Below are positions 1-22,129 of a stretch of 33,929 nt of DNA, one piece after another. The stretch covers positions 1-33,929 of the forward strand of contig NZ_PVTI01000032.1 of NCBI RefSeq assembly GCF_003002895.1, given 5' to 3'. The notes under the pieces were generated by a model. The model did not search any database, was not told the origin of the DNA, and worked only from the letters and a program-made list of their open reading frames with translations. A program made the position numbers and the translations under genes. The DNA comes from Knoellia remsis (GTDB lineage: Bacteria > Actinomycetota > Actinomycetes > Actinomycetales > Dermatophilaceae). Position 1 is the first letter of the stretch. Each line of letters starts with the position of its first letter.

Positions 1-2
1 CC

Positions 3-880: not shown

Positions 881-890
881 CCTCAAGGAT

Positions 891-913: not shown

Positions 914-1290
914 AACGAGCTGGCCCGACCGAGGCGCAGGTCGCCGCGCTCGACGGCGCTGTCGCCGAACTGCTCGACCAGGGCATTATCGCGGGCTGGG
1001 TGGCCATTCAGACCGAACACTTCCGCAACCTGTTCCTCAGCAAGCAGCTGGGCTGCTGGCTCCTGTTCACATGGGCCGACGGATCGATCGAGATCGAAGA
1101 GGACTACCCGCCCTACGCGCTCGTGCCCGAGCTCTTGGCAGGCACCTTCACCGACGAGGACCGAAGCGCCAACTATCAAGTCGTGTGGGTCGCCGACGAC
1201 CGCCGTGGCGACGCCTGGCAACGCTACGGAATCCACGAGTCACCAGGCCACTACATGGGTCTCGCTGCCAAGCAGCGCAAGCCGCGATAG
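907..1290 (+). CDS. Hypothetical protein, 127 aa
   Basis: Not recognised. A soluble, acidic protein of 127 residues: an N-terminal helix of about 30 residues, then alternating strand-like segments rich in Trp and aromatic residues (GWVAI, CWLLFTWADGSIEIEEDY, YQVVWVADD) suggesting a small beta-rich domain, and a basic C-terminus. The ATG at 907 is chosen over an in-frame start at 754 because the latter would overlap istB by 127 bp and the extra residues are compositionally like an istB shadow. It starts 26 bp after istB on the same strand and may be a passenger or a gene interrupted or flanked by the IS. Confidence 0.6.
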   Translation: MTERAGPTEAQVAALDGAVAELLDQGIIAGWVAIQTEHFRNLFLSKQLGCWLLFTWADGSIEIEEDYPPYALVPELLAGTFTDEDRSANYQVVWVADDRRGDAWQRYGIHESPGHYMGLAAKQRKPR

Positions 1291-1542
1291 CCGGCTCTCG
1301 ACTTTCCGCGGGGTGGGGCCGAATCAAGCCGTCACCCTGGGGCCGGCCCGGGTTGACATAGACACCCGGCATTGAGCTGGCTATGCGTGACCTCGGACCC
1401 AACTGGCTCCTCGCCGACTGCGGCTATGTCGAACTCTGGGCTTCCCCACCGACGAGACCTACCAGGACAAGGTCTGACTCCAGCGTGCGGTGGCACCTGC
1501 CACGGGTGCGGAGAGCAGCCCCGGCGACGGGTCCCAGGCGAG
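1291..1542. other. Intergenic stretch, no gene seen
   Basis: Between two convergent genes. A TTGACA hexamer near 1354 has no good -10 at 16-18 bp. A short plus-strand frame from 1384 begins like a protein (MRDLGPNWLLADCGY) but soon turns into Pro/Arg-rich shadow; inserting one base after codon 20 would give a 31-residue peptide ending in TGA, so it may be a decayed gene, but this is not supported further. Confidence 0.3.
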
Positions 1543-5800: not shown

Positions 5801-7129
5801 GCTCGGAAGACTTTGTGTGAGCGGGCGAATCTGCACCGGTGTGCGCAGTTGGCCGTCCGCCGCTGGCATGAAGGACGCGGCAAGCAGAGCCTCTATCCAC
5901 CTGGCGCGCATGTCGGCTCCCCCCGCCCCGACTGACGCGACGGTCGCCGGTACCAGTGCCTCAACGGCGGCAGCATTCGCACCCGTTCGGTTAACGAGAT
6001 CAGGTGCCACGCTTGCCGTGAGGAAGTCACCGACGGCGTTGACAAGCATGCGGTTGAAGCCCAAGGACTCCGGAGTGGCCGCGACCTGCCGGCGGTCCAT
6101 GGTGAGCACCCACTCCGCGTGAACGGCTACGTGGAGTCCGGGCCGCTCGTCCGTGGGAAAGAAGACGTGCAGAGGAAACGTCTCGCTGACCAGAGGCAGA
6201 CCCGCGTCGTCAACAGGCACGGCTACGGCGAACCTGGCCTCCGTGATGCTGTTCCAGGCGTCGCCTAGCGGCGCGAGCAAGGCGGCGTCCGGGACGACAG
6301 AGCCTCTGTAGATGAACCACTCCTCGCCAGTCTCATCAGGCTCGTCGTCGCTGTCCGACGTGGTGGCAAGTAGCACGTGCTCGACGCCATCCTCCGGCTC
6401 CCGTGACACCTCGGCCGAGAAGTTGCTCCCGGTCCCGCGAAGCTGCAGATGGTCAACATTCGGGAGGAACAGGAGAAGTCGAGGATGCAGGTTGTCGACG
6501 AGATGTTGCTCGACGATCTCGCGGCCGACACCCTCACTGAACGGAAGGCGAATGACGGTCGTGAAGCCATCGCCGCGTAGTTCCGCCACGCGCCCGGCGT
6601 CAGGGCCAAAGTCTCCTGCCTCAACTGGAAACGGGAAGGCGTAGACGGGAAGCTTCTGCCCGGCGGGCAGCGCCCCGAGAATGGCGGACACGTCGGTCCA
6701 AACGCGCTCACTGCTGAACTGGAAGGAGGCGCGAGCCGAGGTGATCTGCGGGTGGTCGGTGATCTCGCCAACCGACTTGAAGCCGAGCCCCTTGTGGCCT
6801 ACGGCCTCACCTGGTCCCTTGGATGAACGTCCAAGCGAGCAAATCGCGTTGACCTGCTCGTCTCCGAAACCGAAGCCGTTGTCGGCCACGATGAGCGCCG
6901 TCTCGGTGAGCAGGAAGTGCACCCGACCGCGTGACCCGGCGTCCCAGGCGGCATCGTTGGCATTCTGCAGCAGTTCGAACGGATAGCGCCCGGTGTACTG
7001 CTGGCGAACCAGTTCCTGCCCCTCGCCGCGTTCGTGCAGGCTCTTGAAGGCACTGTCGTGCAGACCGTCAGCCGCCAGAAGTCGCAGCGGACGCAGCTCG
7101 CCTTCACACAATCTGGCTACAACGTCCAT
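2864..7129 (-). CDS. Sacsin-like GHKL ATPase with C-terminal DUF3883 (NOV) nuclease-like domain, 1421 aa
   Basis: Very large cytoplasmic protein. The N-terminus has a Hsp90/sacsin-type ATP-binding fold: N-box ELLQNANDA (residues 52-60), DNGFGF (83-88) and glycine-rich lid GHKGLGFKS (111-119). The long middle has no motif I can name. The C-terminus from about residue 1287 matches the DUF3883/protein NO VEIN C-terminal domain, with RGEE, SPYD (D1328) and IEVK (E1342, K1344) forming a PD-(D/E)xK-like active site, then FYIS. A Pro/Ala-rich linker at about 1200-1285 joins them. Proteins of this architecture are frequent in bacterial defence islands, which fits the Type III system nearby, but the role is inferred. 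The ATG at 7129 has a GAGGTAGG ribosome-binding site. Confidence 0.85.
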   Translation of the reverse strand: MDVVARLCEGELRPLRLLAADGLHDSAFKSLHERGEGQELVRQQYTGRYPFELLQNANDAAWDAGSRGRVHFLLTETALIVADNGFGFGDEQVNAICSLGRSSKGPGEAVGHKGLGFKSVGEITDHPQITSARASFQFSSERVWTDVSAILGALPAGQKLPVYAFPFPVEAGDFGPDAGRVAELRGDGFTTVIRLPFSEGVGREIVEQHLVDNLHPRLLLFLPNVDHLQLRGTGSNFSAEVSREPEDGVEHVLLATTSDSDDEPDETGEEWFIYRGSVVPDAALLAPLGDAWNSITEARFAVAVPVDDAGLPLVSETFPLHVFFPTDERPGLHVAVHAEWVLTMDRRQVAATPESLGFNRMLVNAVGDFLTASVAPDLVNRTGANAAAVEALVPATVASVGAGGADMRARWIEALLAASFMPAADGQLRTPVQIRPLTQSLPSPERAHQVAELDPGHTLRPDIEERNAVRTFLSHVPGIDEIGVPEFLSSLPPPTRDTVHDYYDFLVAWRERAGSPLVAELRKVPSVLGVNGQNFIPGDGTIFFPRERGVAALPEDLPIPVAYSPATDEAQSLLRDLGVKPFEWRELIRDFLITLLASPETDETTRSRGMAALRAYRLARLSGSEDLEPVLGRVLLPGRTADANMRELRPAALMYFSAPWSGSDDLELIYGAFNEPEFLDVAVPEDSEQRGDELDFFRMLGVTDHPRLDEAKPTEQWGYMVGSGRHPHRGGLFNEWMALPEVDAAARCPQGHPASQQLRRSYQLDRHEQLVESKDPLRLMALWKQLARRWGATYEDGMNAQFWCVNTVHAGERGRLAPSLFAHTLRARSWVPVDRGNVAELVLPMNAWISAAQTPRRIQERIPRISEAMYQAHGGPGLAAALHLTDAGRPRVEDLLTLLGSIADEADAAGGPNRETVQAARWVQRTLHDVLREDLEPHPAPETVRLLATQNGKSSFVAQPPYAEDPLLRDTFEKQRPLLSAEAGLTRLTRYLSLTKLDDAVKTSPLPFGEHHDALYDDTATRVNRIKPYLFALVRAENSSAENRVRPALRSLELIVCDELALRYQYDETEVTRQDAVCYIASRAERRRGRSVNVGTAYLELDPTTRQPHWFPLGRQLAQFLNVPTLSDAFTMLLTATSGDRKRMMDDRQIHDSDVREARQLLRISAEDDEELSNVLDSLVPEPGDEDQREPDEVAVLNQAAAASVTVEPPADDNGEPAEAEQSADVAAVKQAAGPAGPPAVDYSRVEIVDARPGRHAPDAPSRRPSARIGTGGTSTAPSVQTEEQNRRVGKRGEEVAYNAERRRLTEIGKNPASVHWISKTDELSPYDLMSVDEDDQLIYIEVKATRASDPAEPFYISHAELIEATYRRSRYYIYRVTDVDDAAPLITRWADPLALIKEGRGRLLLAKAQMALTVEEDAVE

Positions 7130-7291: not shown

Positions 7292-8941
7292 TCAGGCCCG
7301 CTTGTGGAGGGCGTAGGCGAGCTCGAACTGCTGGTCCTCGTCGAGGGAGTCGGCGAACTGGCGGTAGTGGGCGCGGTCTTTGGCGGTGGGCTTCTTCCCG
7401 CGCCAGGCGGGTGAGAGGTCGAGGTGGGCGTGGGCGACGTTGACCCATTGCCAGGTCAGGCCGTAGCCGACGCTGCTGTAGTGGGTGCCGGGGCGGAACT
7501 GTCGGGCCCACTCGTTGAACCAGCGGCTCATGTAGAGCCTGTGCTCGATCTTGGCTTCGGTGGCCCGATAGTCCCGCCGACGCGTCTCCTCGCCGGCCCG
7601 CCAGATCCGGGCTTGCCACTCGTCCGGGCTGACGAGCATCGTGGCCGAGCAGGCGCGGGCCAGGCGAACACCCATCGGCCCGGGCATGTTGAGGGCTTCG
7701 GCGGCGGCCTTCCACGACGTGACATCGGGGTGTAGCCGCGCCAGGGACAGGGACGCGAAGGCCCGGACGGTGTCCTCGCTGGAGTCGAACGCGCCTTGCA
7801 GGTGCTCGAGGTATTGGGCGTGCGGGATGACCTGGGGGATGACGAGCAGGTTGATCGGCATACGCGCTCCTGGGTGGGTGTCGAGGTGGTGGGACAGGCG
7901 GCGGTGCGGGGCGCGGGCCGCCATGACGAGCCGGGTCAGGGTGGGGGTCATGACCGTGTGGTCGGCGAGCCAGCCGAGGGGCCCGTCCGGGGTGGTCGGG
8001 GGGAGCTCGGACCACGGCGTCAACGCGGCCGCGGCGGCGTCGACGTCGGGGGCGGCCAGGATCGCGTCGGCGGTGGCCAGGGCGGCACCGCGGACACCGG
8101 GGTCGTCGGGTGGTCGGAGGCCCCACCGTGGGCCGCGGTCGCCGGTCCGCTGTTCTGCCTCGTGGGCGAGGGTTGCGGGCCAGTGGGCGAGGTCGGTGGC
8201 GGCGGGTTGGCCGGCGAGGTGGAGCATCAGGGTGGTCAGGTGCCGTAGGTCGGTCAGGTAGGCCGCGGGGCAGGCGGGCTGTCCGAGGACCTCGATGTCG
8301 TGGCCGTCGAGGGCTGCGTCGACCCGCCGCTGCGTCAACATGACAGCCTCGTCTGCCGGGGCGGTCGCGGTAGTGGTGAGGTCGTGTTGGCACTGGCGGG
8401 TGGGTCCGTCGCCGAGCGGGTTCCCGCACACCAGGCTCCCCCCGACGCGGCGGAGGTGCGAATGCCGTTGGTCGCGGAATGGTCGTTGGCAGGCGGGGCA
8501 TTCGGCGACGAGCAGGTCACCGTGGCGGGTGCAGGCGGTGACCGTCAGGAGCCGCCACGCGGTCTGCCATGCGCCGGTCTCCGCGAGACAGGTCGGGCAG
8601 ATCTGGGTGCCATGGGCGGGGACCCAGCCGCGGGCGGCGACCTGCCGGTAGGAGTGCCGGTCGGTTGGGTCGAGCCCGGTGAGGTCGAGGGCGGTGCCGT
8701 CGAACGAGGCGAGGGTCGCGGCATACACGGCCTGCTCGCCGACGCGGGCGAGGGCAGCGAGTCGGGCGACGGTGTCCGGGGAGGGGGCGAGGGTGAGGTA
8801 GCGGGTGCCGGCTCGGCCCCGGCCGGTAGCGGTGAGGAGTTGGGCGGTGGTCAGGCCGTTGGCGTCGGCGAGGTGCTCCAGCCAGGACTCGATCGACTCC
8901 CCGTCCTGAGGGGCGATCGACACCGGCAGCGCGACGGTCAT
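7292..8941 (-). CDS. tniQ: TniQ family protein, second copy (TnsD-like target selector), 549 aa
   Basis: TniQ/TnsD proteins bind a target site or a guide complex and recruit TnsC. The N-terminus (SIAPQDGESIESWLEHLADANGLT) is the conserved TniQ start, with a helix-turn-helix-like segment. Zinc-finger pairs CPTC (115-118), CTRH (137-140) and CPAC (148-151) are all intact. A large helical C-terminal part from about 200 to 549 is longer than minimal TniQ and fits TnsD-like DNA recognition. The ATG at 8941 overlaps the stop of the HAD gene (ATGA). It is the last gene of the operon. A second TniQ usually means a second targeting route. Confidence 0.88.
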   Translation of the reverse strand: MTVALPVSIAPQDGESIESWLEHLADANGLTTAQLLTATGRGRAGTRYLTLAPSPDTVARLAALARVGEQAVYAATLASFDGTALDLTGLDPTDRHSYRQVAARGWVPAHGTQICPTCLAETGAWQTAWRLLTVTACTRHGDLLVAECPACQRPFRDQRHSHLRRVGGSLVCGNPLGDGPTRQCQHDLTTTATAPADEAVMLTQRRVDAALDGHDIEVLGQPACPAAYLTDLRHLTTLMLHLAGQPAATDLAHWPATLAHEAEQRTGDRGPRWGLRPPDDPGVRGAALATADAILAAPDVDAAAAALTPWSELPPTTPDGPLGWLADHTVMTPTLTRLVMAARAPHRRLSHHLDTHPGARMPINLLVIPQVIPHAQYLEHLQGAFDSSEDTVRAFASLSLARLHPDVTSWKAAAEALNMPGPMGVRLARACSATMLVSPDEWQARIWRAGEETRRRDYRATEAKIEHRLYMSRWFNEWARQFRPGTHYSSVGYGLTWQWVNVAHAHLDLSPAWRGKKPTAKDRAHYRQFADSLDEDQQFELAYALHKRA

Positions 8942-9579
8942 GACGAGCCGGCTGGTGGTGTGCGCGACCTCGGGGCCTGGGCGTCGCGGAGGAAGTCGTG
9001 GAGGTGACTTTGCAGTTCCTCGCTGGGGTGGTCGCCATAGATCAGGTGAGGGCGCGGGGGCTCCGCCGCGCGCCGTCGTGATGCGTTGCTGGCTGTCGCG
9101 GTGTGGGTCGCGATCCAGTCAGCCAGGCTGGACAGGTCGTCGGAGGTCAGGCCGGCGCGCATGTCGGGCGCCACGAGCAGCACGTTCGTGCAGTTGGCGA
9201 GCCGGCCGGTGCCGGTCCACATCGCGCACGGCTCCAGGACGCCTACAGCGGGTGAGGCGTGGTCAGGGCGGAGCCTGGCGTCGATCCACACGACGTGTCG
9301 GATCTCGGGGTGCCGTCGTAGAAAGTCGTCAAGGGCTCGCTGCTTCCACCAAGGGGCGGGGTTCCACCGGTCCTCGGGCCGAACCGGGCGCGCCGAGGTG
9401 TCGGCGGGGGACGCGATCTCGGCCCAGGACCGGCCGGGCAGCAGGTCGAGGTGGTGGCGCATTGTGTGGGTCCAGTCGGTGAGCCAGTAGCAGCCGACCT
9501 GGCCCGGGCGGTGCAGATCGTCCAGAGCGGCACACATCAACGGCGACAGGTGCACACCGCCCTCATCATCGCCGATCAT
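8938..9579 (-). CDS. HAD-like phosphatase, C-terminal part (motif I lies in the upstream gene)
   Basis: Resembles the HAD domain found in Swiss Army Knife RNA-repair proteins: a segment LSPLMCAALDDL, motif II region CYWLTDW, a motif III lysine in WWKQRALDDFL and motif IV-like VVWIDARLRPD. The nucleophile motif DxDG is absent here but is present at the end of the preceding gene (DIDGVI). The ATG at 9579 makes an ATGA overlap with the upstream stop; an in-frame GTG at 9594 gives 218 residues. A one-base insertion in the TGGG run near the junction would fuse both into a normal HAD domain. Either it is a split enzyme, a frameshifted gene, or a sequencing error. Confidence 0.65.
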   Translation of the reverse strand: MIGDDEGGVHLSPLMCAALDDLHRPGQVGCYWLTDWTHTMRHHLDLLPGRSWAEIASPADTSARPVRPEDRWNPAPWWKQRALDDFLRRHPEIRHVVWIDARLRPDHASPAVGVLEPCAMWTGTGRLANCTNVLLVAPDMRAGLTSDDLSSLADWIATHTATASNASRRRAAEPPRPHLIYGDHPSEELQSHLHDFLRDAQAPRSRTPPAGSS

Positions 9580-10139
9580 CGTGTGTCGACCCACTGGGTC
9601 GAGGCGCCGATCGTTGCGATCACCCCGTCAATGTCAAGGACGACCGCGACCGGCGGCAGCCCGGCCGCTGCTTCCTTCATCGGGCCCGCCCCGGCGTCAA
9701 GCCTCCGGATGGCCACGACGGTTTCGTGCGTTTGTGCGAAGCTGGTCAACAGTCCGCGAAGGGCGTGGGTGATGTGAATCGCGGACGCGGGACGGGCGGC
9801 ATTGATAGCGGCAATGGAGCGGCGGCCTTCGTCGATGACCCACACGAGATCGTTGACGTGGGGTTGAAGCTCGGTGCCGAGCTGGTAACCCCTATGGGCG
9901 AGGCCGACGGTGATGGCGTCGGTCAGGCCGGGGAAGCTCGAGCCGTCGACGTGGATCACCTCCTCCGGCACACCATGCGCTGCCGTGAGATCTCGAATCC
10001 AAGAGGACACCTTCTCGTGGGTGTCGGCGACGGTGCCGCCGACCAGCTCCCGGGTGTCGGTTTGGAACATCAGGACGAGCGGGATGTGGGAGCCGTCGAC
10101 CAGGCGGATATACGTGGGGTAGACGTGCCAGATGCTCAT
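9576..10139 (-). CDS. Putative RNase H/integrase-core-like protein ending in a HAD motif I, 187 aa
   Basis: No family recognised with certainty. By eye the first 110 residues follow the order of a retroviral-integrase core: VDGSHIP (D15), a strand and TRELVGGTVAD resembling SRKIVGWAVSD, a helix ending GVPEEVIHVDGSSF (D65) resembling GVPPEVIHSDNGSQF, then LAHRGYQLG and an acidic VIDEG (D103/E104). Spacing D65 to E104 leaves 38 residues, near the DDx35E pattern. The C-terminus, after a linker, reads VAVVLDIDGVI (D169, D171), a HAD nucleophile motif whose domain continues in the next gene. It starts on an ATGA overlap with the whiB-like gene. Confidence 0.6.
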   Translation of the reverse strand: MSIWHVYPTYIRLVDGSHIPLVLMFQTDTRELVGGTVADTHEKVSSWIRDLTAAHGVPEEVIHVDGSSFPGLTDAITVGLAHRGYQLGTELQPHVNDLVWVIDEGRRSIAAINAARPASAIHITHALRGLLTSFAQTHETVVAIRRLDAGAGPMKEAAAGLPPVAVVLDIDGVIATIGASTQWVDTR

Positions 10140-10444
10140 GCGGTCCTCCGCTGTCTTGGGTGTCGTTGGCGGGCGAGGTCGAGGCGGCCATTGCGGTAGC
10201 CCTCACCGGCGGCGATGCCGGTATAACCGGACAGTTCGGCGAGGTCGGCGCACTCTGCGGTGATGGGGCAGGCGGAGCAGACAGCGGCCGGTGCGGCCAG
10301 GGCGGCGAGACGACCCGCCTGGGTGAGGGCGGCGGCAAACGTGTTCTCCCAGCGGCTCCACTCGATGGTGAGGTCTTTGCAGGCGCCGTCGGCCAGGGAC
10401 CAGGCGGCGTCGCGGGCGAGGACCTCGCGGCTGAACCCCCTCAT
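10136..10444 (-). CDS. WhiB-like iron-sulfur protein, about 102 aa
   Basis: Counting from an in-frame GTG at 10447, cysteines are at 23, 57, 60 and 66, i.e. C-x33-C-x2-C-x5-C, the WhiB pattern for a [4Fe-4S] cluster, followed by a GIAAGE turn in the place of the usual G[IVL]WGG motif and a basic tail (RNGRLDLARQRHPRQRRT). WhiB proteins act with sigma A or alone as redox- or NO-responsive transcription factors in Actinobacteria. Its tail is typical for DNA binding. The ATG at 10444 overlaps the previous stop (TGATG), and the gene is embedded in a transposition operon, which is unusual. Confidence 0.85.
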   Translation of the reverse strand: MRGFSREVLARDAAWSLADGACKDLTIEWSRWENTFAAALTQAGRLAALAAPAAVCSACPITAECADLAELSGYTGIAAGEGYRNGRLDLARQRHPRQRRTA

Positions 10445-10821
10445 CACCGCTCCCGTGCCCTGCGCGCTGGCGGCGGGTCGTTGGACCAGCGGGCGCGCAG
10501 GTCCTCGATCGCCGACGAGCAGGGAGTGATCGGTGTGACGGTGAGATCAGGGATCCCAGCGGTCAGGGCCGTCACGGTGTCGGTTGTGCACACGCCCACC
10601 ACGACCCCATGCCGGGTGATGACCCAGGTCCGTCTCGGCAGGGCTAAAGGTTTGGCGCTGGTGGCAGTGATCCATTCCTCGACCAGGTGTCGGAGCTCTT
10701 CGTAGTAGTGCTGGTAGTGGCCGTGGTCGATGCGCTCGAGCGGAGCGTCGTCGATCGCTGTGAGCATCGCCCTGGTGCGCTGGTGCAGGTTCTCCAGGGC
10801 GGGGTTGGCTATCGGTCTCAT
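10444..10821 (-). CDS. Hypothetical protein in the Tn7-like operon, 125 aa
   Basis: Not recognised. The ATG at 10821 overlaps the tniQ stop (ATGA) and has a GAGGAGAT ribosome-binding site, so the longer upstream reading is rejected as a tniQ shadow. The first 60 residues are helical with a His/Tyr-rich stretch (HGHYQHYYEELRHLVEEW); residues 70-110 form strand-like segments (RTWVITRHGVVVGVCTTDTVTALTAGIPDLTVTPITP), suggesting a small alpha/beta domain. Its fixed place before the WhiB-like gene suggests a joint function. Confidence 0.6.
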   Translation of the reverse strand: MRPIANPALENLHQRTRAMLTAIDDAPLERIDHGHYQHYYEELRHLVEEWITATSAKPLALPRRTWVITRHGVVVGVCTTDTVTALTAGIPDLTVTPITPCSSAIEDLRARWSNDPPPARRARER

Positions 10822-12341
10822 CCGTATCTCCTCGTGACGGGGGCCCAGGTCGCGTGGGTGGTGGGGATGGTGGTGACGTCGGCGTCGGCGAGCAGCTGCT
10901 GCCCGGTCTCGGCGAGGGTCAGGCGGGTCTCGGGGTCGATGGCGGCGTCGAAGGCTCGCACGTGTCGGTCGGCGATGAAGGGGCGCGGGCTGGTGAACGC
11001 CGGCCCGTGCGTGAGCCGCGTCCAGATCCACGTCAACGCGAGATCGTGCCCGGGGTGGCCGTCGATCTCCGGTAGCCGACCGGCGGCGAGAGGCAGCCGC
11101 GGGAGGCGGGTGACCGGTCGCAGGGTGTCGCGGCGCCGCTGGTAGTCCACCAGCCCGCCGTCGACGAGAGCGTCCACGGCGTCAGTCAGGCGAGCGGCAT
11201 CGAGGTCGTGGATGCCGCGGCCGAGGCGTATGCCGTCCAGCAGCAGGCTGGCGTCGTCGTCGGTGGTGCCGAAGGCGTGGCACGCGCGGGCTGAGGACGT
11301 CGCGCCGTCATGGACGTGGGTGAGCAGCATGTGCAGCGCGATCGCGAAGTGCCAGCGGGTCCGCCATACCGCCGGGTCGGGAAGGCCGTCCTCGCCGGGC
11401 GCGGGCAGCAGCGCGGGGACGTGGTCTGGCCGGATGCCGTGCCGCTTCACCTGGTGGGCCAGATGGGTGGTGAGCCACAGGAGGCGGCGGGCGTCGTCGC
11501 GGTTGAAGCCGGCGAGGATCGGCGCTGTCTTCGGTGGCGAGGGTGGCCGTTTGGGTAGATAGCGGCCAGCGTTGGGGACGTGCTGCGGCGGGACCGTCAG
11601 GGTGTGCCCGCGGCGGCGACGTTGTGCACTTTCGCGCAGCAGGCGGTCCCGGTGGTAGCCCGAGTGCAGGGCGGGTGCGGCCGCCGACAGGATGACGGCC
11701 ACTGTCCCTGGGTCGGGGCTGGGGAAGACGCCCCACCGGCGAGCCGCGGCCACGTCGAGCGCCGGCAGGCCGCTGGGCCGGTCGGGCCACTGGTCGTCGA
11801 TGGTCGGAGCCACGACGGCGCACACCCGCCGGAACGACCCGAGCCGGAGACGGGCCGACTGGTGGAAGACCGACGCCTCAGCCAGCGACGTGAGCTCGCC
11901 GACCAGGTCCACCAGCCGCGGCGACGGCACAGTCACCGACTCGGCCAGAGACCGGGCCTGGACCAACAGCAGGCGGCAGTCACGGCATACCGGAGACAGG
12001 GCGGACTGCCAGAACAGCTCGCGCCGACCGGTCAGGGGGGTGCAGCACAGGCACACCCACTCCACGCTGAAATGCAGAAGCCAACCGCCCCGATGCGTCT
12101 TGCCGCGCCCGCGGACGGTCGGCGGATAGCGGTCCATCGTCAGACGCGCCGCTGTACCGGCGTCGAGGCCGGCGAGGGCAGCAACAGTCTCTAGTTCATC
12201 TTCAGGAACGCCGACGTCGTGCCGGTGTGCTGGGAGGACCCGGCGGCGGGTCACGCCGTTGGCCTCGGCGAGGCGCCCGGCATATGCAGTGAGTGGCTCG
12301 CCGGGCTGGGGCGTCGGTCGGACGGGAAGTAGCGCTGTCAT
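10818..12341 (-). CDS. tniQ: TniQ family protein, first copy, 507 aa
   Basis: Follows tnsC directly (ATGA overlap at 12338-12341), the usual location of tniQ. N-terminal motif LPVRPTPQPGEPLTAYAGRLAEANGVT matches the TniQ start. Cysteine pairs are present at about 97-100 (CLCC) and 119-122 (CRDC), a reduced version of the TniQ zinc fingers seen intact in the second copy. The C-terminal half is Arg/His-rich and helical. It probably bridges TnsC to a target-recognition factor; which of the two TniQ proteins binds DNA directly cannot be told. Confidence 0.88.
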   Translation of the reverse strand: MTALLPVRPTPQPGEPLTAYAGRLAEANGVTRRRVLPAHRHDVGVPEDELETVAALAGLDAGTAARLTMDRYPPTVRGRGKTHRGGWLLHFSVEWVCLCCTPLTGRRELFWQSALSPVCRDCRLLLVQARSLAESVTVPSPRLVDLVGELTSLAEASVFHQSARLRLGSFRRVCAVVAPTIDDQWPDRPSGLPALDVAAARRWGVFPSPDPGTVAVILSAAAPALHSGYHRDRLLRESAQRRRRGHTLTVPPQHVPNAGRYLPKRPPSPPKTAPILAGFNRDDARRLLWLTTHLAHQVKRHGIRPDHVPALLPAPGEDGLPDPAVWRTRWHFAIALHMLLTHVHDGATSSARACHAFGTTDDDASLLLDGIRLGRGIHDLDAARLTDAVDALVDGGLVDYQRRRDTLRPVTRLPRLPLAAGRLPEIDGHPGHDLALTWIWTRLTHGPAFTSPRPFIADRHVRAFDAAIDPETRLTLAETGQQLLADADVTTIPTTHATWAPVTRRYG

Positions 12342-13384
12342 CGCCGTGTTTTCCCTGCCGCGGTGGCTGCGTCGATCTGTCCGTCGAGCGAGCGATCGCT
12401 GAGGTCGACCGCGTCGAGGTCGTCGTGGGTAATGACGCTGCGCCGTTCGTGGATGGCGTCTAGGACCGACCCGGTGACGAGCTTGGCCACCTCCCCGACG
12501 AAGCCTTGGGTGCGTCGCCAGACGTGCTGCGCGAGTTTGGTGACGAACAGGTCCGGAGCAGCGTCGGGCAGATGCTCCAGAGGCCGGTTGGCCGCGGTCG
12601 CGAGCAGGTCCTGCCAGGCAGCCTTCTTCTCGACCGTGCTGATCTGGAAGGCGTCGATGGTCATCGTCGTCAGCCGTGCTCGGATCTGCGGGTCATCAAG
12701 GATGGCGGTGCTTTCGAGATGCGCGCCGACCAGGATGACGGTGCCCCTGTTGACCTCTCCGAGTTCGGTGTTGAGGAACTTGATGTAGTCCAGCACTGCT
12801 CGGCCTTGCGCGCTGGTGGTGCGGAGCATGTGAGCGTCGTCCAGGATCACGACCTGCACCCCGTGCATCCGTAGCGCATGGAGCACCCGGGTGGTTGTGG
12901 TTCGGGCGAGACCCTCTGGCGGATACCCCAGGTAGAGCAAGATCAGTGCGTTGATCTCCTTGATCGAGCTCGACGCCATGAGTGTCACGTAGACGACCGG
13001 CACCCAATCCGCGGTCACGCCAGGCTGGGGGGACCAGGTGGGGCGCTCCTCGTTCGCTTGTCCGCCGAGGACTCCGCGGTACACGCCGAAACCCCAGTGC
13101 TTGAGCAGTGTGGACTTGCCCGCTGAGAAGGGCGCGGTGACCGCGACCATTGGCATCGCTCCCGGCGGTCGAAGTCGGTTCGTCGCGACGATGTCGTCGA
13201 GGTGAGCCGCGACCGCCTCCATGGGCCTGGAGACGACAACCGTCGCGTTCATCGCCCCTGCCAGACGACGGAAGTAGTCGTCCCTGCACTCTCGTGACAG
13301 GCTGTCGAAGTCGGTGATGGAGACCGGATCAGGCCAAGTGGGGGCCGGAGTGGTTGCCTGTCGATGCCAGTCTCGAACGTCCAC
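12338..13384 (-). CDS. tnsC: TnsC/TniB-like AAA+ ATPase, 348 aa
   Basis: AAA+ regulator that forms filaments on DNA and links target selection to the TnsAB transposase. Walker A APFSAGKST is at residues 84-92 (the first glycine is replaced by alanine), Walker B VVILDDAHML with D182/D183, and a sensor-type strand TVILVGAH about 40 residues later. The GTG at 13384 starts 1 nt after the tnsB stop; an earlier in-frame start would overlap tnsB by 77 bp. The stop overlaps the tniQ start. Length is near that of TnsC from compact Tn7-like elements. Confidence 0.9.
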   Translation of the reverse strand: MDVRDWHRQATTPAPTWPDPVSITDFDSLSRECRDDYFRRLAGAMNATVVVSRPMEAVAAHLDDIVATNRLRPPGAMPMVAVTAPFSAGKSTLLKHWGFGVYRGVLGGQANEERPTWSPQPGVTADWVPVVYVTLMASSSIKEINALILLYLGYPPEGLARTTTTRVLHALRMHGVQVVILDDAHMLRTTSAQGRAVLDYIKFLNTELGEVNRGTVILVGAHLESTAILDDPQIRARLTTMTIDAFQISTVEKKAAWQDLLATAANRPLEHLPDAAPDLFVTKLAQHVWRRTQGFVGEVAKLVTGSVLDAIHERRSVITHDDLDAVDLSDRSLDGQIDAATAAGKTRR

Positions 13385-13385
13385 G

Positions 13386-15599
13386 TCACACCATCTCTCG
13401 GTAGTCGGGCCAGGGCTCTTCGTCGGTCTCCTGAGCCGGCTCGGACACGGCCGTTTCCGCACTGTTGTTCGCGCGGACAGCGGTAGGGAGGCGGACGACG
13501 TTGCCCTGTTGTGCGAGTTCCACAGCGCGATGGGCCTCAGCGACTTCGTCGTGGTCGCGTTGGGCCTGTCCCCAGCGGATGTAGGCGGCCGAGAGCTGGG
13601 CTCGTGACTCGTCCTTGCCCTTGGGAGTAGTCAGATCGCCGATCTCGTCGATGATCTGGAGCATGATCGTGCGCTTCTTGAGCGCGCGGTTGCCTCCGCG
13701 TTCCTGGATGCGTTCGTTGACGCGGTCGACGAGGACGTCGACCAGGGGGGCGTCGATGAGATGGCGTCCTCGCCAGCCGATCTCGTGGATGCGGTCGGTG
13801 TCGGGGTGACGGAACCAAATGCGGGTCATGTCGCGCGGGTCGTGGTGGAACGGGATCGCGCTGTCCTGCTCCCGGAAGGTTCCCTTCCGCACGTCGCGGA
13901 AGTCCTCGAGGACCTCGTCGTCGTAGGTCAGGTTCTTGAACTCGACCCCGGCGTGGCCGGGCGCGAGCCAGATGATGGGGAGGAACTGGTAGATCAGGTC
14001 GGGGTGCACCGGGATCGTGATGCGACCGGTGATCGCGAAGAGTGCGTCCCAGTACTCCAGCGGTGTGACGCGCCTGCCAGGTTCACCCGGGAGGTGCAGT
14101 CCGTCGTGTGGTTGCCTGCTGTAATCCAGGGTGAGAAAGCGCTGCATGTCGGTCAAGTACTTCTCGGCGGTACACATCGGCTCATCGGCAACAACCCCGA
14201 CCCACGACCCCCTCTCATAGATCCCGCGGCCCTTGAACGCGTCGGACTGCTGGTAGAATCGCTGGTAGGTCTCGTGGAGCCTCTCAATATGGGGGTTGTC
14301 ACTGGGCTTCTTCCCGCGGCTGAGTTGCAGGGTGATGCCGAACTGGTCGAGCAGCGACCGGAAGTGCTTACCGACGTAGATGGAGCCATGATCGGACCTC
14401 ACCGAGGTCGGCGTCACGCCAGGGACTTGGTGCTCTCCCCAAATCGCCAAGTCCGGCTTAGCGGCGCCCCGTCTCCCGGTCCGCACCGGGTTTCCGTTGA
14501 AGTCCAGGGACTCAGGCACGCCGATCCATCGCCAGTCGTCGATCGTCGGACCGTCGGGGCCCTGCTCGACGAGCATCGACTGCTGCCGCATGGAGTCGTA
14601 GAGCAGTAGGCCGACGTCGACACCGTTGGCGGAGCGGGGGAACAGGCGCATCGCCGTGACAACCCGCGATGGCGTGCTCATCATCGAGCCGATCTCGACG
14701 CTGACGGGCCGGTCCTGGATCGGGTCCCAGATGAGGTTGTCGCCGCGGCAGATGTCGGTGCAGCACTGGGTGCTGTGCTGCGCCGGGTAGCTTTCATGCC
14801 CTGAGACCTTGCGCAGACTGCGGGACTTCTGCTGCTTGGTCGTCCTCCCGATGGCCCGCCAGTGATGGCTGAGGTACTCCTCCATCAGCCGCTCGGGCAG
14901 GTTCTCGATAACCAGCCCTTCCTGCTTCATCTGCAGGCGGATCCGTCGTTCGATCTCGTTGCGGCTGATCGCGCTCCGGCGACCGTCGAACTGGCGGAAG
15001 TGCTCCTCGGCGATCCGTCGGAAGTTGGCATCGAGGGCGTCGAAGCCTTGCTTGTCCCGGATGCTGCGTCCGTCGACGACGCCGCCGAGACCGAGGGTCA
15101 TCCAGTTCTTGTCCCAGGTCATCATGGCTCGGCCGGAGATGCTCGGCTTCTGGATCTCCCCGTCGTAGACGCGCTGCATGATCGTCCGGTCGACGGTCCG
15201 TTCGAACGACACCAATCGACTCATGTGCTCGTAGCGCTTAGTGATGCTCACGCCGTAGGTCTCGCCAAACGGCCAGAAAGGCTCGCCTGGTTGCGCGAGT
15301 TCGGCTACGCCTTCGCGATAGCCGGTACGCACCTCCAGGATGCATTGCTGCCGGAACAGCGCGCTCGCCTGAACGTCCGCAGGGAGCTTAATGAACCAAG
15401 GTAGGAGCGAGGAGTGGAGCACCTGGACGCCGGACTCGCTGACCTCTCGAGCATCCAGCTCGGTGTAGGCGGTGAAGTACGTGTGTCCCGTGGAGTCCCT
15501 CAGATGTGCCCCGTGGCGGTCGATCTCAACCACGATGGCAACTCCTCGGTTGGTGAGGATGCGCATCCCGGTGGAGATCTCGACGGTGGCTCTACTCAT
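13386..15599 (-). CDS. tnsB: TnsB-like DDE transposase (Mu transposase/integrase core), 737 aa
   Basis: Catalyses 3'-end strand transfer. The catalytic triad reads D282 (CTDICRGD), D403 (VRSDHGSIY) and E439 (NPHIERLHETY), giving exactly D-x35-E, so the enzyme looks active. N-terminal residues 1-250 hold the end-binding helix-turn-helix domains (RRSAISRNEIERRI), and the C-terminus has a Mu-transposase beta-barrel (LIYQFLPIIWLAPGHAGVEFKNLTYDDE) followed by an acidic tail that would contact TnsC. The ATG at 15599 overlaps tnsA by 8 bp; the upstream in-frame extension lies inside tnsA. Confidence 0.93.
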   Translation of the reverse strand: MSRATVEISTGMRILTNRGVAIVVEIDRHGAHLRDSTGHTYFTAYTELDAREVSESGVQVLHSSLLPWFIKLPADVQASALFRQQCILEVRTGYREGVAELAQPGEPFWPFGETYGVSITKRYEHMSRLVSFERTVDRTIMQRVYDGEIQKPSISGRAMMTWDKNWMTLGLGGVVDGRSIRDKQGFDALDANFRRIAEEHFRQFDGRRSAISRNEIERRIRLQMKQEGLVIENLPERLMEEYLSHHWRAIGRTTKQQKSRSLRKVSGHESYPAQHSTQCCTDICRGDNLIWDPIQDRPVSVEIGSMMSTPSRVVTAMRLFPRSANGVDVGLLLYDSMRQQSMLVEQGPDGPTIDDWRWIGVPESLDFNGNPVRTGRRGAAKPDLAIWGEHQVPGVTPTSVRSDHGSIYVGKHFRSLLDQFGITLQLSRGKKPSDNPHIERLHETYQRFYQQSDAFKGRGIYERGSWVGVVADEPMCTAEKYLTDMQRFLTLDYSRQPHDGLHLPGEPGRRVTPLEYWDALFAITGRITIPVHPDLIYQFLPIIWLAPGHAGVEFKNLTYDDEVLEDFRDVRKGTFREQDSAIPFHHDPRDMTRIWFRHPDTDRIHEIGWRGRHLIDAPLVDVLVDRVNERIQERGGNRALKKRTIMLQIIDEIGDLTTPKGKDESRAQLSAAYIRWGQAQRDHDEVAEAHRAVELAQQGNVVRLPTAVRANNSAETAVSEPAQETDEEPWPDYREMV

Positions 15600-16422
15600 C
15601 AGAGGCTCCGTGGGCCCAGGCGATGGGCGCCGTGCGTCCGATCCAGTGGTCGATGTCGATGATGAGGTGGCCTCGCCACGCGTAGTGCCACATGGCAGAG
15701 ACCAGGTGTCCGGACCCACGGTCTGCCTCGATGACATCGTTCGTGGTCGCGCCTTCGGCACACATCTCGACGAGCTCCGGTCGTGCCGCCTCGTACCAAG
15801 GTCGGTCATGGCGGTATGCCGCGAGCCATCTCAGGTTGAACTTCTGGGCGCGCGAGTGTCCGGGGAAGACCTTGTAGTCCCAGCCGACCTCCCGGCACGC
15901 CGCGGCGGTCGCGTCGCTCTGGATCCGGAACTTCTCATCCTGGCGATCGGCCGAACGGACATTCCAGATGGTGACGCGGCCGGCCGTGTCGAGCATGAGC
16001 AGGTCGGGTGTGTGGATCGTGCGTCGACGGTTCGGCAGCCGCACGCCGAGACGGGTGGGCTGCGGCACGAACCACGCAGCGGTCGGGTCGCGCTCCAGCA
16101 TCAGGAGCAGGTCGTACTCCAGGCCCGACTCCAGTTTCAACGTGGTGCCCGTGACGAAGCAGTGCGCCTGCACCGGGATGTGTCTCGACTTCTCCGTCGA
16201 CCGCGGGTTCCGGATCGGCACTAACCCGTGGACGTCTGGCGGTCCGAGGGACCAGTCCCATCGGATCGGATCCGACCCTTGCGGACGGAAGGTCCAGTCG
16301 GTCACCCGACCCACGGGGGCTGGCCGCACCTGCACGGCACCAATAGAATGACCCAACGGAGGATCCTCGCTTTGTCCGAAACTTTGCATCGGATCCACCA
16401 CGAGGGCGCGCCTTGCTACCAA
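15592..16422 (-). CDS. tnsA: TnsA-like endonuclease subunit, 276 aa
   Basis: Cuts the 5' ends of the transposon so that it moves by cut and paste together with TnsB. Residues typical of the TnsA nuclease fold are KLESGLEYDLLLMLE (E98, E102), HTPDLLML (D140) and, in place of the usual Q/E-x-K, WNVR (R156). A VR in this position is common among actinobacterial TnsA-like proteins as I recall them, so it need not mean loss of activity. The start is unsure: TTG at 16422 or ATG at 16389, the latter removing 11 residues; neither has a strong ribosome-binding site. Confidence 0.85.
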   Translation of the reverse strand: MVARRALVVDPMQSFGQSEDPPLGHSIGAVQVRPAPVGRVTDWTFRPQGSDPIRWDWSLGPPDVHGLVPIRNPRSTEKSRHIPVQAHCFVTGTTLKLESGLEYDLLLMLERDPTAAWFVPQPTRLGVRLPNRRRTIHTPDLLMLDTAGRVTIWNVRSADRQDEKFRIQSDATAAACREVGWDYKVFPGHSRAQKFNLRWLAAYRHDRPWYEAARPELVEMCAEGATTNDVIEADRGSGHLVSAMWHYAWRGHLIIDIDHWIGRTAPIAWAHGASDE

Positions 16423-16660
16423 CAGGGCGTGCCCTCACTTGCTGTGGAGCCACTTCGCACCTTAGTCCCACACGGGTGACCGCGCAATGGTTTGCCCGCA
16501 CAGTGTCTTGCGACACGCCAGGGAAGGCACTCTGATCGGACTGCATAACCATGCAACGACGCCATCGAGAACCTTGGCGGTTTCCCGCGGTCGAGGCCGC
16601 GACTTATGCGCTTCTCCACCATCAGCGCAGGTCAGCACTATACGGGCTATCCTCCACATC
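16423..16660. promoter_or_regulatory. Divergent intergenic region tnsA / Type III operon
   Basis: 238 bp between divergent operons. It must hold both promoters. A TATACG at about 16640 and TTATGC at 16605 are possible plus-strand elements but spacing is poor. The region also holds the candidate transposon end at 16503-16514. Confidence 0.3.
16503..16514. other. Candidate right end of the Tn7-like element
   Basis: TGTCTTGCGACA (16503-16514) reads inward on the minus strand as TGTCGCAAGACA, similar in layout to the Tn7 end TGTNNNNNGACA, about 80 bp upstream of tnsA. Inward of it GCAA-type hexads recur (GCAAAC, GCGAAG, GCAAGT, GCAAGG) between 16400 and 16500, possibly TnsB sites. No matching left end was found in the window, so this is only a candidate. 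Confidence 0.3.
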
Positions 16661-17194
16661 ATGAGCCGACAGCGCACCAGAAACCTACGAGGATCGTATG
16701 CTGGGGAGCGCAAGCAAGCCACACGGGGTCTGACCAGCCCCACCCGAAACGGCCTGACCAGCCGTGCGACCTCGGAGGATGGTTCACCCTCCACGAGGAA
16801 GACCGTGCGACCTTCATTGCAAGTCCTCCGCGGACGACGTGCGACTTCCGCGCGCCCGGACAACCTCATCGAGGACTTGGAGAGCTGCATCCAGCCAGTG
16901 GACGAAACAGGCTGCTTGGCTCCCGCGTGTCACGAGGTCGTCGCATGGCCGAAGGCGGGCGGGCGCCCGAGCCGGTTCTGCTCCCGCAGCTGTCAGGAGC
17001 GCTTCGAGCGCGAACGTGCCCGCCTACTCGCCGAGGTGGCCGAGATCGAAGCAGCCCTACCCGTGACCGACGCCCCGGCAGAGCGCAGATACTTGTCCAA
17101 CCAACTGAGCCGCCGCACGTGGCTTTTGGAGCGCTATCCCTTGCCCTACAAGGAACAGGCGCGACTCCTCAAGGCGGAGAGGCATCCCAAGTGA
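16661..17194 (+). CDS. Zinc-finger/coiled-coil protein heading the Type III RM operon, 177 aa
   Basis: Unrecognised. The first 75 residues are Arg/Ser/Thr-rich and probably disordered. Then comes CLAPACHEVVAWPKAGGRPSRFCSRSCQERFERERARL, a C-x4-C...C-x3-C arrangement resembling a treble-clef zinc finger, followed by a coiled coil of about 70 residues. Its stop TGA at 17192 overlaps the mod GTG at 17191, so the two are co-translated. The ATG at 16661 is preferred over a start at 16487, which has shadow-like residues; no clear ribosome-binding site is seen. It may guide or regulate the methyltransferase. Confidence 0.6.
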   Translation: MSRQRTRNLRGSYAGERKQATRGLTSPTRNGLTSRATSEDGSPSTRKTVRPSLQVLRGRRATSARPDNLIEDLESCIQPVDETGCLAPACHEVVAWPKAGGRPSRFCSRSCQERFERERARLLAEVAEIEAALPVTDAPAERRYLSNQLSRRTWLLERYPLPYKEQARLLKAERHPK

Positions 17195-18861
17195 CTGAGG
17201 CCCGACTCGAGCTCGTCTGGCCGGGCAAGGACAAGTTCCTCCTGGTCCCGAAGGACACCGATGGCAAGCCCGTCTGGGTCGAGCGGGATCACCCGGCGGC
17301 GTCCGAGGTGCGCCTAGCGGACTTCACGGGTGTCGTGGGGGACGTGCCCGAGGACCCGTATGCCGCGAACCTGCTCTTCACCGGCGACTCGCTCGACGTG
17401 CTGCGCATCCTCTGCGAAGTGCCCGAGTACCGGTCGATCTACCGCGGCAAGGTCAAGCTCGTCTACATCGATCCGCCGTTCAACACTGGCCAGGCGTTCG
17501 AGCACTACGACGACTGGATGGAGCACTCAACCTGGCTGTCCTTCATGCGGGAGCGGCTGCTGCTGATCCGTGACCTGCTCGCGCCGGACGGGTCAGTCTG
17601 GGTGCACCTCGACGACGCCGAGCAGCACCGGATGCGGCTCCTCATGGATGAAGTCTTCGGGTCTCAGAACTTCATTGCGTCGTTCGCGTGGGAGAAGGAC
17701 AAGGGTCGTCGCAATGACACCGATGTGTCGACAGTCCACGATCACATCCACGTATACGCGACAAGCCCCTCTGCCTGGGCCAGAGTGCGGAACCCTCTGA
17801 CGCGGACCGCCGAACAAGTGGCGCGCTACCGAAATCCGGATTCTGACCCCCGTGGACCCTGGCTCCAAGGAGACAACGGCACGGCGAAGAGCGGAAGCGA
17901 TGCAGCTCGGTTCGAGGTGACGTTGCCCTCGGGGCGAGTTGTGACGCCACCGGCTGGAAACTTCTGGAGGTTCAGTCGTACCAACTTCGAACAAGCGCGA
18001 TCCGAAGGCCGCGTGTGGTTTGGCCGCAAGGGCGACAGCATGCCGGTCATCAAGCGGTACCTCACCGAGGTGAAGGATGGTGTGGTCCCGCGCTCGTGGT
18101 GGCCCGCTGACGAAGTTGGACACAACCAAGAGGCGAAGCGCGACCACCTCCGCAAGATGTTCCCAAACGGAGCCCCCTTCGCGACGCCGAAGCCCGAACG
18201 GCTGTTGGAGCGCGTCATCCACATCGGGTCCAACCCTGGCGACCTCGTGCTGGACTGTTTCGCCGGGTCAGGCACGACCGCGGCCGTGGCACATAAGATG
18301 GGTCGTCGTTGGGTGACCTCGGAGATCTTGGCGTCGACGGTGGAGCAGTTCACCCTCCCTCGCCTCACCATGGTGGTCGCTGGCGAAGACCCCGGCGGGA
18401 TTACGAAGGCAGTCGGCTGGAATGGCGGCGGCGGCTTCCGGACGGTGACGGTCGGCCCTCCGATGTACGAGGACACTCCGTTCGGGGTGCTGCTTGCCGG
18501 GTGGGCAACGAACGGTCGGTTCGCACGCGCTGTGGCTGGCCAGCTCGGATTCGAGTTCCAGCCCGACGCGGCGCCGTTGTGCGGAATCCGTGGCCGGATG
18601 CGTCTCGCAGTGGTTGACGGTGCCGTGGGCGCTGAGGAGGTGCGCCAGATCGTCGGGTCCCTCGGCGAGAAGGAGCGAGTCACCCTCATCGCGAAATCCG
18701 TTCTTCCCGAGGCTGAGTCGCTGCTTGCTCAGGTGAGCCCCGGTTCTCGGATTCGCAAGGCGCCTCGTGATCTCCTGACCAGCGGGGCACAACGGATGCG
18801 GCGGCGCACCGAGGCGAGCACACGGCATACGCGGGAATCAACGGAAGGATCGGGGACGTGA
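17191..18861 (+). CDS. mod: Type III restriction-modification methyltransferase Mod, 556 aa
   Basis: N6-adenine methyltransferase of the beta class: the catalytic DPPFNTG is at residues 94-100 and precedes the SAM-binding FAGSGTTA at 357-364, the order known for Type III Mod and related enzymes. The region between, about 130-330, is the target-recognition domain (it contains RRNDTDVSTVHDHIHVYATSP after the second conserved helix). The GTG at 17191 overlaps the upstream stop; the apparent long upstream extension is in the frame of the preceding gene. Its stop overlaps the res GTG at 18858. Confidence 0.93.
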   Translation: MTEARLELVWPGKDKFLLVPKDTDGKPVWVERDHPAASEVRLADFTGVVGDVPEDPYAANLLFTGDSLDVLRILCEVPEYRSIYRGKVKLVYIDPPFNTGQAFEHYDDWMEHSTWLSFMRERLLLIRDLLAPDGSVWVHLDDAEQHRMRLLMDEVFGSQNFIASFAWEKDKGRRNDTDVSTVHDHIHVYATSPSAWARVRNPLTRTAEQVARYRNPDSDPRGPWLQGDNGTAKSGSDAARFEVTLPSGRVVTPPAGNFWRFSRTNFEQARSEGRVWFGRKGDSMPVIKRYLTEVKDGVVPRSWWPADEVGHNQEAKRDHLRKMFPNGAPFATPKPERLLERVIHIGSNPGDLVLDCFAGSGTTAAVAHKMGRRWVTSEILASTVEQFTLPRLTMVVAGEDPGGITKAVGWNGGGGFRTVTVGPPMYEDTPFGVLLAGWATNGRFARAVAGQLGFEFQPDAAPLCGIRGRMRLAVVDGAVGAEEVRQIVGSLGEKERVTLIAKSVLPEAESLLAQVSPGSRIRKAPRDLLTSGAQRMRRRTEASTRHTRESTEGSGT

Positions 18862-21404: not shown

Positions 21405-21406
21405 CC

Positions 21407-22129
21407 ATGATCCCGTCTACCAATCTTGTTGAGCTATCCGCATCGTCGCGACCGGGGCTTCGTTTTCAGGCGAAGCGGGAACGCGAGTTGGACCAAGCGC
21501 TCTTCGCCCTCGCAGCGAAACTGCCATTCGCTAAGGACGGCGTCGCCGTGTGCCGTGAGTTCAACGGTCCTCGAGGAATTCCTGATCTCTTGGCCACGAC
21601 CCGTTACCAACACCAGCTCAGGGCCAGGGAGAACGCAACAGTTCCGCCTGTAACCAACAAGTCCGACGCAGCTGTGCTCGCCGTTCTGCCCTCGAAGGTC
21701 GCGCGTACACCCCTGTGGATCGCTGATACATGTGGCGTCAGTCTGGCCCTTGCGCTGGACAGGCTGCGCTCACTGAGGGGCAGAGGGGCTGTACTGGAAA
21801 GCGAAGGGACCTACCGGCGTCACCCGGCGCTCGAACCCCTTGGCCACACCTATGCCTTCGAAGCGAAGGTCGCAGACTGGGGCAAAGGCCTTACGCAGGC
21901 CTTGCGATACCTCGCGTGGGCCGACAGCGCATCGATCGTGCTGCTTGAGCCGCCCAAAATCCTCACGCGCGTGACTGATCAGTGCCGTTCGCTCGGGGTC
22001 GGCCTGGCCGTCGAAGACACTTGGAAGGTGCGCCCCCGTATAGGAAGGCCCAATCAGGCACTTCGCCTGGCTGCTTCGGAGTCATGGTTCCAGGACTTTG
22101 CGCCTCACAGGCCTTCTCCGGAGGCGTAG
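21407..22129 (+). CDS. PD-(D/E)xK-like nuclease with inserted winged helix, accessory of the Type III operon, 240 aa
   Basis: Starts 2 nt after the res stop, so it belongs to the operon. An N-terminal helix carries E27, then GVAVCREFNGPRGIPDLL gives the PD (D60). Residues about 86-140 look like a winged helix (VLPSKVARTPLWIADTCGVSLALALDRLRSL), and then YAFEAKVADW gives E152 and K154, with Q164 in the helix after it. The E...PD...ExK...Q order is a full nuclease signature interrupted by an HTH insertion. I know no standard Type III component of this kind. It ends 25 bp inside the convergent gene. Confidence 0.6.
   Translation: MIPSTNLVELSASSRPGLRFQAKRERELDQALFALAAKLPFAKDGVAVCREFNGPRGIPDLLATTRYQHQLRARENATVPPVTNKSDAAVLAVLPSKVARTPLWIADTCGVSLALALDRLRSLRGRGAVLESEGTYRRHPALEPLGHTYAFEAKVADWGKGLTQALRYLAWADSASIVLLEPPKILTRVTDQCRSLGVGLAVEDTWKVRPRIGRPNQALRLAASESWFQDFAPHRPSPEA

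Follow-up and report, generated by a model that had tools for sequence, protein, structure and literature searches.

A Tn7-like element of Knoellia remsis inserted behind dnaB, with two long TniQ proteins and a WhiB-like protein that accompanies one TniQ type

In Tn7, the transposition proteins TnsA, TnsB and TnsC are served by two target pathways, one in which the TniQ-domain selector TnsD reads the conserved essential gene glmS and one in which TnsE leads to plasmids, and insertion creates a 5-bp duplication (described in part in PMC11406308). The element studied here lies on Knoellia remsis contig NZ_PVTI01000032.1 (C32 of genome G000), of which the whole analysed stretch of 33,929 nucleotides is called the window; all coordinates refer to this contig, and relatives carry G, L, C or letter labels. 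It resembles Tn7 in its TnsA, TnsB and TnsC proteins, a TniQ-domain selector, the 5-bp duplication, the use of a conserved essential gene and the two-pathway logic. It differs in that the site is dnaB and that the second selector would be TniQ1 with a WhiB-like protein and the 125-residue protein p125 (no search for TnsE was made). We give slightly better than even chances to the reading that this Tn7-like element has two target pathways, in which TniQ2 homes to dnaB, whereas a second class of targets is served by TniQ1 together with p125 and the WhiB-like protein.

Parts of this plan are found in other described systems. Faure et al. (2023) reported 1,048 tandem dual tniQ-tnsD Tn7-like loci (PMC10293859), which likewise carry two tandem TniQ/TnsD genes per operon; unlike the loci as presented there, both TniQ proteins are long here (about 470-550 aa), and the WhiB-like and p125 genes lie between or after them. 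The words dnaB and WhiB are both absent from the main text of that paper. The same source describes TnsF of Tn6022, an inactivated tyrosine recombinase serving as target selector, and thus a non-TniQ accessory gene in an operon with tniQ as in the present case; unlike TnsF, neither the WhiB-like protein nor p125 gave a tyrosine-recombinase match. By description, the element is also like the members of an Actinobacteria-dominated Tn7-like clade, of which, according to the main text of Benler et al. 2021 (PMC8649781), none is experimentally characterised and in which defence cargo is common; dnaB is absent from that main text. In the available text of the CvkR paper, the sole mention of WhiB is in the title of a reference. 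In line with the initial annotation, to which no WhiB in known Tn7-like families was known, our searches of the open-licence literature found neither a dnaB site nor a WhiB partner described for such elements, although supplementary tables may contain such an entry.

The transposition genes form one block of nine co-directional open reading frames (ORFs) on the minus strand (7292-16422):

15592-16389, minus strand: tnsA (NCBIfam NF033179, 121.7 bits against a cut-off of 110); the start is more likely the ATG at 16389 than the earlier TTG at 16422
13386-15599, minus strand: tnsB, with a presumed DDE triad and a C-terminal tail, WPDYREMV, that is inherited with tnsC
12338-13384, minus strand: tnsC (Pfam TniB, 54.4 bits, E 1.4e-14), with a GTG start 1 nt past the tnsB stop (by eye)
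10818-12341, minus strand: tniQ1, a variable TniQ (Pfam TniQ, E 2.6e-6) of a type that co-occurs with WhiB
10444-10821, minus strand: p125, of unknown family, adjoining tniQ1 and the WhiB-like gene, with relatives in other loci
10136-10447, minus strand: WhiB-like gene, four invariant cysteines
9576-10139, minus strand: p187, ending in a HAD-type motif I (DIDGV), with relatives in G034 and G102 and a partial C-terminal match in G104
8938-9579, minus strand: HAD-like remainder, out of frame with motif I; homologues elsewhere have motif I in one ORF
7292-8941, minus strand: tniQ2, a conserved TniQ (Pfam TniQ, E 1.1e-21) and the proposed, TnsD-like dnaB reader

Thus, TnsA, TnsB, TnsC and TniQ are encoded in a single operon, and the nine-gene Tn7-like operon with two tniQ genes proposed in the initial annotation is borne out by ORFs, joins and family models. 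Read by eye, tnsA and tnsB overlap by 8 nt and tnsB and tnsC are separated by 1 nt, while five joins are of the ATGA kind (tnsC/tniQ1, tniQ1/p125, WhiB/p187, p187/HAD, HAD/tniQ2) and that of p125 and WhiB is TGATG, so that the earlier count of such overlaps at six of the eight joins holds. TnsB scores under the Pfam cut-offs, yet it is conserved with relatives: D292, D403 and E439, which we take to be the DDE triad, are kept in 24 of 24 aligned rows, window included, and the first Asp sits in the motif NLIWDP. No cas match was obtained for the nine operon ORFs (Pfam, NCBIfam), as had been stated before, nor among the PADLOC matches listed for six ORFs of the cargo; no search for a CRISPR array was made.

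The position of the element relative to dnaB follows from these features:

24202-27009, minus strand: dnaB with an intein (Pfam DnaB_C, DnaB N and intein splicing domain), whose 3' end is the attachment site
24172-24201, minus strand: right transposon end, TGTCGAGATGCAGGGAAGACTTCACAAACG; a similar end lies at dnaB in G009 and others
24202-24206, no strand: 5-bp target-site copy CTAGA next to the right end, with a matching copy at G000:C17:85037-85041
1-1364, plus strand: IS21-type-like repeat in the left part of the transposon, at the assembly break, with an istB-like ORF at 80-880 (by eye)

Hereby, the right end (5'-TGTCGAGATGCAG...) adjoins the dnaB stop directly at 24201, which places the insertion point 0 bp past the stop, at a distance of 54 bp from FQGHY (the codons FQGHY through the stop occupy 24202-24255). 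The left end is located on contig C17 at 85042, where the flanking CTAGA is identical to the 5 bp found next to the right end. Since the C17 sequence left of the element matches the DNA downstream of dnaB in two genomes of the same genus (G074, 77% over 657 bp; G073, 79% over 129 bp), C17 and C32 carry the two flanks of a single insertion, 25.3 kb or more in length. The repeat at 1-1364 is identical to a stretch of C12 (L024 17054-18417), and an istA-like ORF begins on C17 (by eye); it looks as if the assembly is split between the two contigs by an IS21-type insertion close to the left end. The initial annotation had not recognised this target site, the 3' end of dnaB. Among the same-genus genomes, an end lies within 70 bp of the dnaB stop in four of nine and none is present there in the other five. 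The dnaB intein itself contains a LAGLIDADG domain.

Related elements allow this site to be compared more widely. A TniQ2 profile matched 30 of the 186 genomes of the family, and the neighbourhoods examined were those of G000, G009, G034, G102, G079 and 18 more, the weaker or fragmentary matches G007, G017, G052, G054, G063, G090 and G147 being left out; a contig scan with TnsC confirmed three loci. The fetched DNA of L046, M, K, G101, G060, G104a, G005, G102d and G294 holds no dnaB, and these loci stand outside the dnaB counts. In all 19 dnaB-holding loci fetched via transposon genes, the window included, an end of the pattern TGT[CA]GAGA is found within 120 bp of the dnaB stop, i.e. insertion is site-specific behind a conserved gene as in Tn7-like elements. 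G078, G001 and G079, found via the site and not via transposon genes, bring the number of dnaB-linked ends to 22, of which 20 lie within 20 bp of the stop, with G133 at 65 bp and G079 at 67 bp. When spacing is measured to the first end after dnaB, 13 of these 20 loci show a distance of 53-55 bp, counted from where the FQGHY codon begins, and a longer dnaB tail goes along with an end nearer to the stop (r -0.77; 0 of 20,000 permutations as low). This relation fits a DNA-reading selector, to which selection against breaking dnaB may add.

Exact 5-bp duplications were found in seven of the ten loci with candidate left ends, where 0.04 matches would be expected by chance, so that 5'-TGT ends occur together with the 5-bp duplication as in Tn7-like elements (for the window, CTAGA across contigs). 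The elements between the duplications measure 44.5 kb in G034, 40.1 kb in G009, 26.2 kb in G094, 23.9 kb in G133, 19.1 kb in G106, 6.6 kb in G078 and 6.0 kb in G079; in G094 and G106 the duplication pairs with a second end (at 40 bp and 14 bp, respectively). A search of 396 genomes of the order with the end pattern returned six matches, four of which are dnaB junctions (the other two are in G305 and G536), and the reversed control pattern gave none among the matches listed. In conclusion, comparison shows insertion just behind dnaB with a 5-bp duplication, at a distance for which the conserved coding end of this gene is mostly responsible. Thereby, dnaB becomes a further safe site of Tn7-like elements, with a ruler that can be measured, and the dnaB pathway could be developed into a tool for protein-guided insertion in actinobacteria without damage to the essential gene.

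Two cases point beyond this site. G102 carries an identical stretch of 11,726 bp at two places, one of which ends at dnaB, while the second copy shows no dnaB end within its 60-kb stretch (the assembly has 100-N gaps); for the relative on plasmid pGKT2, only the right end was found, and as far as fetched it is not at dnaB. Both suggest that the family uses targets other than dnaB.

Of the two TniQ proteins, TniQ2 is the likely dnaB reader, because it is conserved throughout while TniQ1 varies. It is covered to at least 95% in 23 of 26 rows (about 80% in G032 and G185, 26% on the truncated contig K). The model of the window-type TniQ1, in turn, scores 430-1037 bits with nine WhiB-bearing loci and matches the G102 module by its C-terminal part only, and TniQ1 of 16 operons lacking WhiB scores at most 81 bits or is unmatched. 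In G164, G049, G032 and G185, this model has no match; between tnsC and tniQ2 they carry an ORF of 481-542 codons that is TniQ-like only by eye. In wider sets of genomes, profile matches to TniQ1 comprise three among the 396 order genomes (G000, G009 and G294, the last with 80 bits) and G000 only among 356 phylum genomes.

The presence of WhiB follows this division: all 10 loci with the window TniQ1 type have it, and none of the 16 with another type does. In the window, G034, G009, G094, G116, G133, G104 and the broken module of G102, its place is between the two tniQ genes, whereas in G106 and G109 it comes after tniQ2. The 16 operons without WhiB are 14 plus the intact G102 operon, covered by one motif scan that required the glycine turn (15 operons), and G294, where a scan without that requirement did not find the motif; they are not all independent, as G059/G104b and G069/G070/G101/G102 are near copies, and the truncated G005, G102d and K as well as M, which starts inside tnsC, are not counted among them. 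With these 16 related operons lacking WhiB, one outcome that was to speak against the initial annotation, namely tns elements of close relatives without the accessory genes, did occur. A WhiB search of the 396 order genomes returned six matches: two strong ones, both within tns operons, a weak one that is an ordinary WhiB of the host, and three that by eye seem spurious, so that homologues residing mostly outside tns operons, which would have spoken against the initial annotation, are not what is seen. A plasmid collection gave no match to WhiB, HAD or p187. p125 was detected by model in eight of the ten WhiB loci (window, G034, G009, G094, G116, G133, G104 and G102, in two pieces in G133 and G102), G106 having a short relative and G109 an uncertain one; its predicted fold (pLDDT 64.8, pTM 0.35) is too weak for interpretation. 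Co-conservation thus applies to WhiB and p125 and fails for p187 (four of ten loci) and HAD (one of ten). The association of WhiB with one TniQ type suggests, short of proof, a new way to choose a second kind of target.

The assignment of the WhiB-like protein stands on its cysteines rather than on its family score. With 15.5 bits (E 0.027), it stays below the cut-off of 23.6 bits of Pfam PF02467, which seven of nine members match with a best E of 0.0093, and its profile finds only WhiB proteins in the PDB (four of four matches, E 0.18-0.75). C23, C57, C60 and C66 are invariant in nine of nine homologues, down to 31% identity, and their spacing (C-x33-C-x2-C-x5-C) is the plan of WhiB1, WhiB4 and WhiB7, so that the four-cysteine [Fe-S] motif is present. 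The glycine turn, GVWGG in ordinary WhiB proteins, reads GIAAG (in the window protein), GIAGG or GLSAG. As the six ordinary WhiB genes of the host genome reach 55-96 bits, the protein of the operon looks like an old, separate branch. Thus, the WhiB label is backed by the four-cysteine pattern and the PDB profile matches, and is at odds with the missed Pfam cut-off and the absent GVWGG turn. Identity to the window protein is 62% in G009, 65% in G116 and 31% in G109.

Comparison of the machinery between loci reveals exchange of whole blocks. Window and G034 are 89% identical in TnsC, 85% in TniQ1 and 77% in TniQ2, whereas TnsA and TnsB reach 46% each, and the switch falls in the last 15-20 residues of TnsB. 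G109 and G116 share TnsB at 92% against 44% for TnsC, 53% for TniQ1 and 47% for TniQ2; in G009 and G116, TnsA (82%), TnsB (87%), TniQ1 (78%) and TniQ2 (77%) are alike, and TnsC (44%) and the TnsB tail (27%) are not. Because identity switches at this tail, the TnsB tail travels with TnsC, and parts of the machinery are swapped as blocks; the trees agree on block exchange for G034 and G109. This is in line with the C-terminal TnsB extension that attaches TnsC according to the available text of PMC11406308. Natural block exchanges of this kind separate TnsAB, TnsC and the selectors.

Upstream of the operon, one feature is shared across the family:

16402-16436, minus strand: conserved hairpin just upstream of tnsA (z -3.17), with matching hairpins in WhiB-bearing and WhiB-less relatives

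Since this hairpin spans the region of the earlier TTG, the ATG at 16389 is the likelier tnsA start. Matching variants of the GC-rich hairpin occur, e.g., in G009, G116, G106, G065 and G060, and it may act as a control element common to the family.

Taken together, we propose that TniQ2, as the conserved long TniQ, would read the 3' coding sequence of dnaB as TnsD of Tn7 reads glmS, and would recruit TnsC and TnsAB there. The co-occurrence with the TniQ1 type suggests that WhiB and p125 serve TniQ1; less surely, the three may form a second selector for other targets such as plasmids, which would either direct insertion or gate it through redox or NO state or through contact with the machinery of transcription, p187 and the split HAD being optional additions. 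In its full form, namely that a WhiB-like iron-sulphur protein and p125 were recruited as target-selection partner of TniQ1 and steer or license transposition according to redox or nitric oxide levels or through contacts to the transcription machinery, beside TniQ2-driven dnaB homing, this proposal is tentative, and we regard it as rather unlikely. If WhiB and p125 do select targets, they would represent a new selector class beside TnsE, TnsF and CRISPR effectors. Several observations weigh against the two-pathway reading as a whole. No intact WhiB-bearing operon away from dnaB was found among the loci examined, the off-dnaB copy of G102 is an intact WhiB-less operon next to a broken WhiB module, and WhiB-less relatives home to dnaB, too. 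With about 470-507 aa, TniQ1 is long enough to bind DNA alone. The p125 model finds nothing in G106 and G109, and no 5-bp duplication was found in G116, G109 and G102, three of the ten loci with candidate left ends. On the TniQ2 tree as on the TnsB tree, the WhiB label has to change twice, so that a link of WhiB to the TniQ block does not follow from the trees by themselves, and G164, the sister of the main WhiB clade on the TniQ2 tree, is without WhiB. Finally, a 40-bp upstream element (16709-16748) is 87.5% identical to G034, whereas the comparison, which covered 400 bp, found no other similarity.

This last element leads to a different explanation, in which WhiB, alone or together with p125, regulates transcription of the tns operon, so as to fire transposition in response to stress or upon arrival in a new cell, and has no role in targeting. 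WhiB proteins are transcription factors, and seven of the eight WhiB-bearing rows form one clade on the TnsB tree. CAST elements have co-opted Xre-family regulators (PMC11406308) and a MerR-type repressor (PMC9938897). For a regulator one would, however, not expect that the gene lies inside the operon and goes with the TniQ1 type, that the DNA upstream of G009, G116 and G109 is 75-79% alike in spite of the far diverged WhiB of G109, or that the hairpin next to tnsA is common to elements with and without WhiB. We thus consider this explanation possible but doubtful. It is quite improbable that WhiB, p125 and the rest are mere hitch-hikers, i.e. selfish or neutral genes between two tniQ genes that are kept by linkage: p187 and HAD, confined to few loci and in the case of HAD split, behave in this way, whereas WhiB keeps its four cysteines down to 31% identity and its TniQ1 partner where it has moved behind tniQ2 (G106, G109). 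The roles of the two TniQ proteins might also be reversed, with TniQ1 reading dnaB and TniQ2 serving the second target, as both are long. This assignment is improbable, given that elements with a different or unmatched TniQ1 are still at dnaB with similar spacing, that TniQ2 is the shared part, and that window and G009 are 72% identical in TniQ2 against 50% in TniQ1 and 45% in TnsC.

The remaining accessory genes differ from WhiB and p125. p187 occurs in the window, G034, G102 and, as the partial match mentioned above, G104; its N-terminal 137 residues are common to G034 and G102. Its designation as RNase H-like found no support in any sequence search: comparison with RNase H/rve gave no Pfam match, no credible PDB match and none to the TnsB of the element itself (hhalign). 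As a candidate of this kind it was also searched for in the 186 family genomes, where 11 matched; of eight weak matches, seven fell at glutamine-synthetase-like ORFs and the other is G087. The claimed HAD gene is recognisable by its motifs by eye, yet motif I (DIDGV) ends the p187 ORF and the remaining motifs lie in the next ORF in another frame, so that no single ORF holds DxD plus the later motifs, and no Pfam HAD match was obtained. Homologues in G032 and G191 have motif I and the rest in a single ORF, and no tns gene was seen in these loci (3.4-3.6 kb). Among the WhiB loci, HAD is present in the window alone. As p187 and HAD are not conserved, they cannot be general factors of target or timing as had been considered. 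The view that the accessory genes are not ordinary cargo survives for WhiB and p125, which recur with one TniQ1 type.

Outside the operon, the element carries the following cargo:

2864-7129, minus strand: TmtA-like defence gene (PADLOC TmtA, 1823 bits)
16606-21404 (16606-18861 and 18858-21404), plus strand: type III methyltransferase and restriction subunit (PADLOC, Pfam)
23268-24101, minus strand: Ser/Thr kinase, PD-T4-6-like (PADLOC, 127.5 bits)

The regions 2864-7129, 16606-22129 and 22105-24101 together look like a defence island; in the last, the kinase adjoins a 387-aa protein without family match.

Further copies were noticed in several genomes. G078 contains a 6.55-kb element at dnaB (G078:C1:3984989-3991541) with the same kind of ends and target-site duplication, in which BLAST with the window proteins found no tns operon; judged by this content, it is a non-autonomous or decayed element. 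In G009, a 494-bp pair of ends flanked by ACGGA (G009:C1:1235498-1235991) adjoins the 40-kb element as a tandem mini-element at dnaB. A second, distant Tn7-like operon with tnsA, tnsB, tnsC and a tniQ is located in the same genome as the window (G000:C12:88004-93542, L024). L045, a 3.9-kb contig of a metagenome-assembled genome labelled uncultured Marmoricola, encodes TnsB and TnsC 97% and 91% identical to those of the window.

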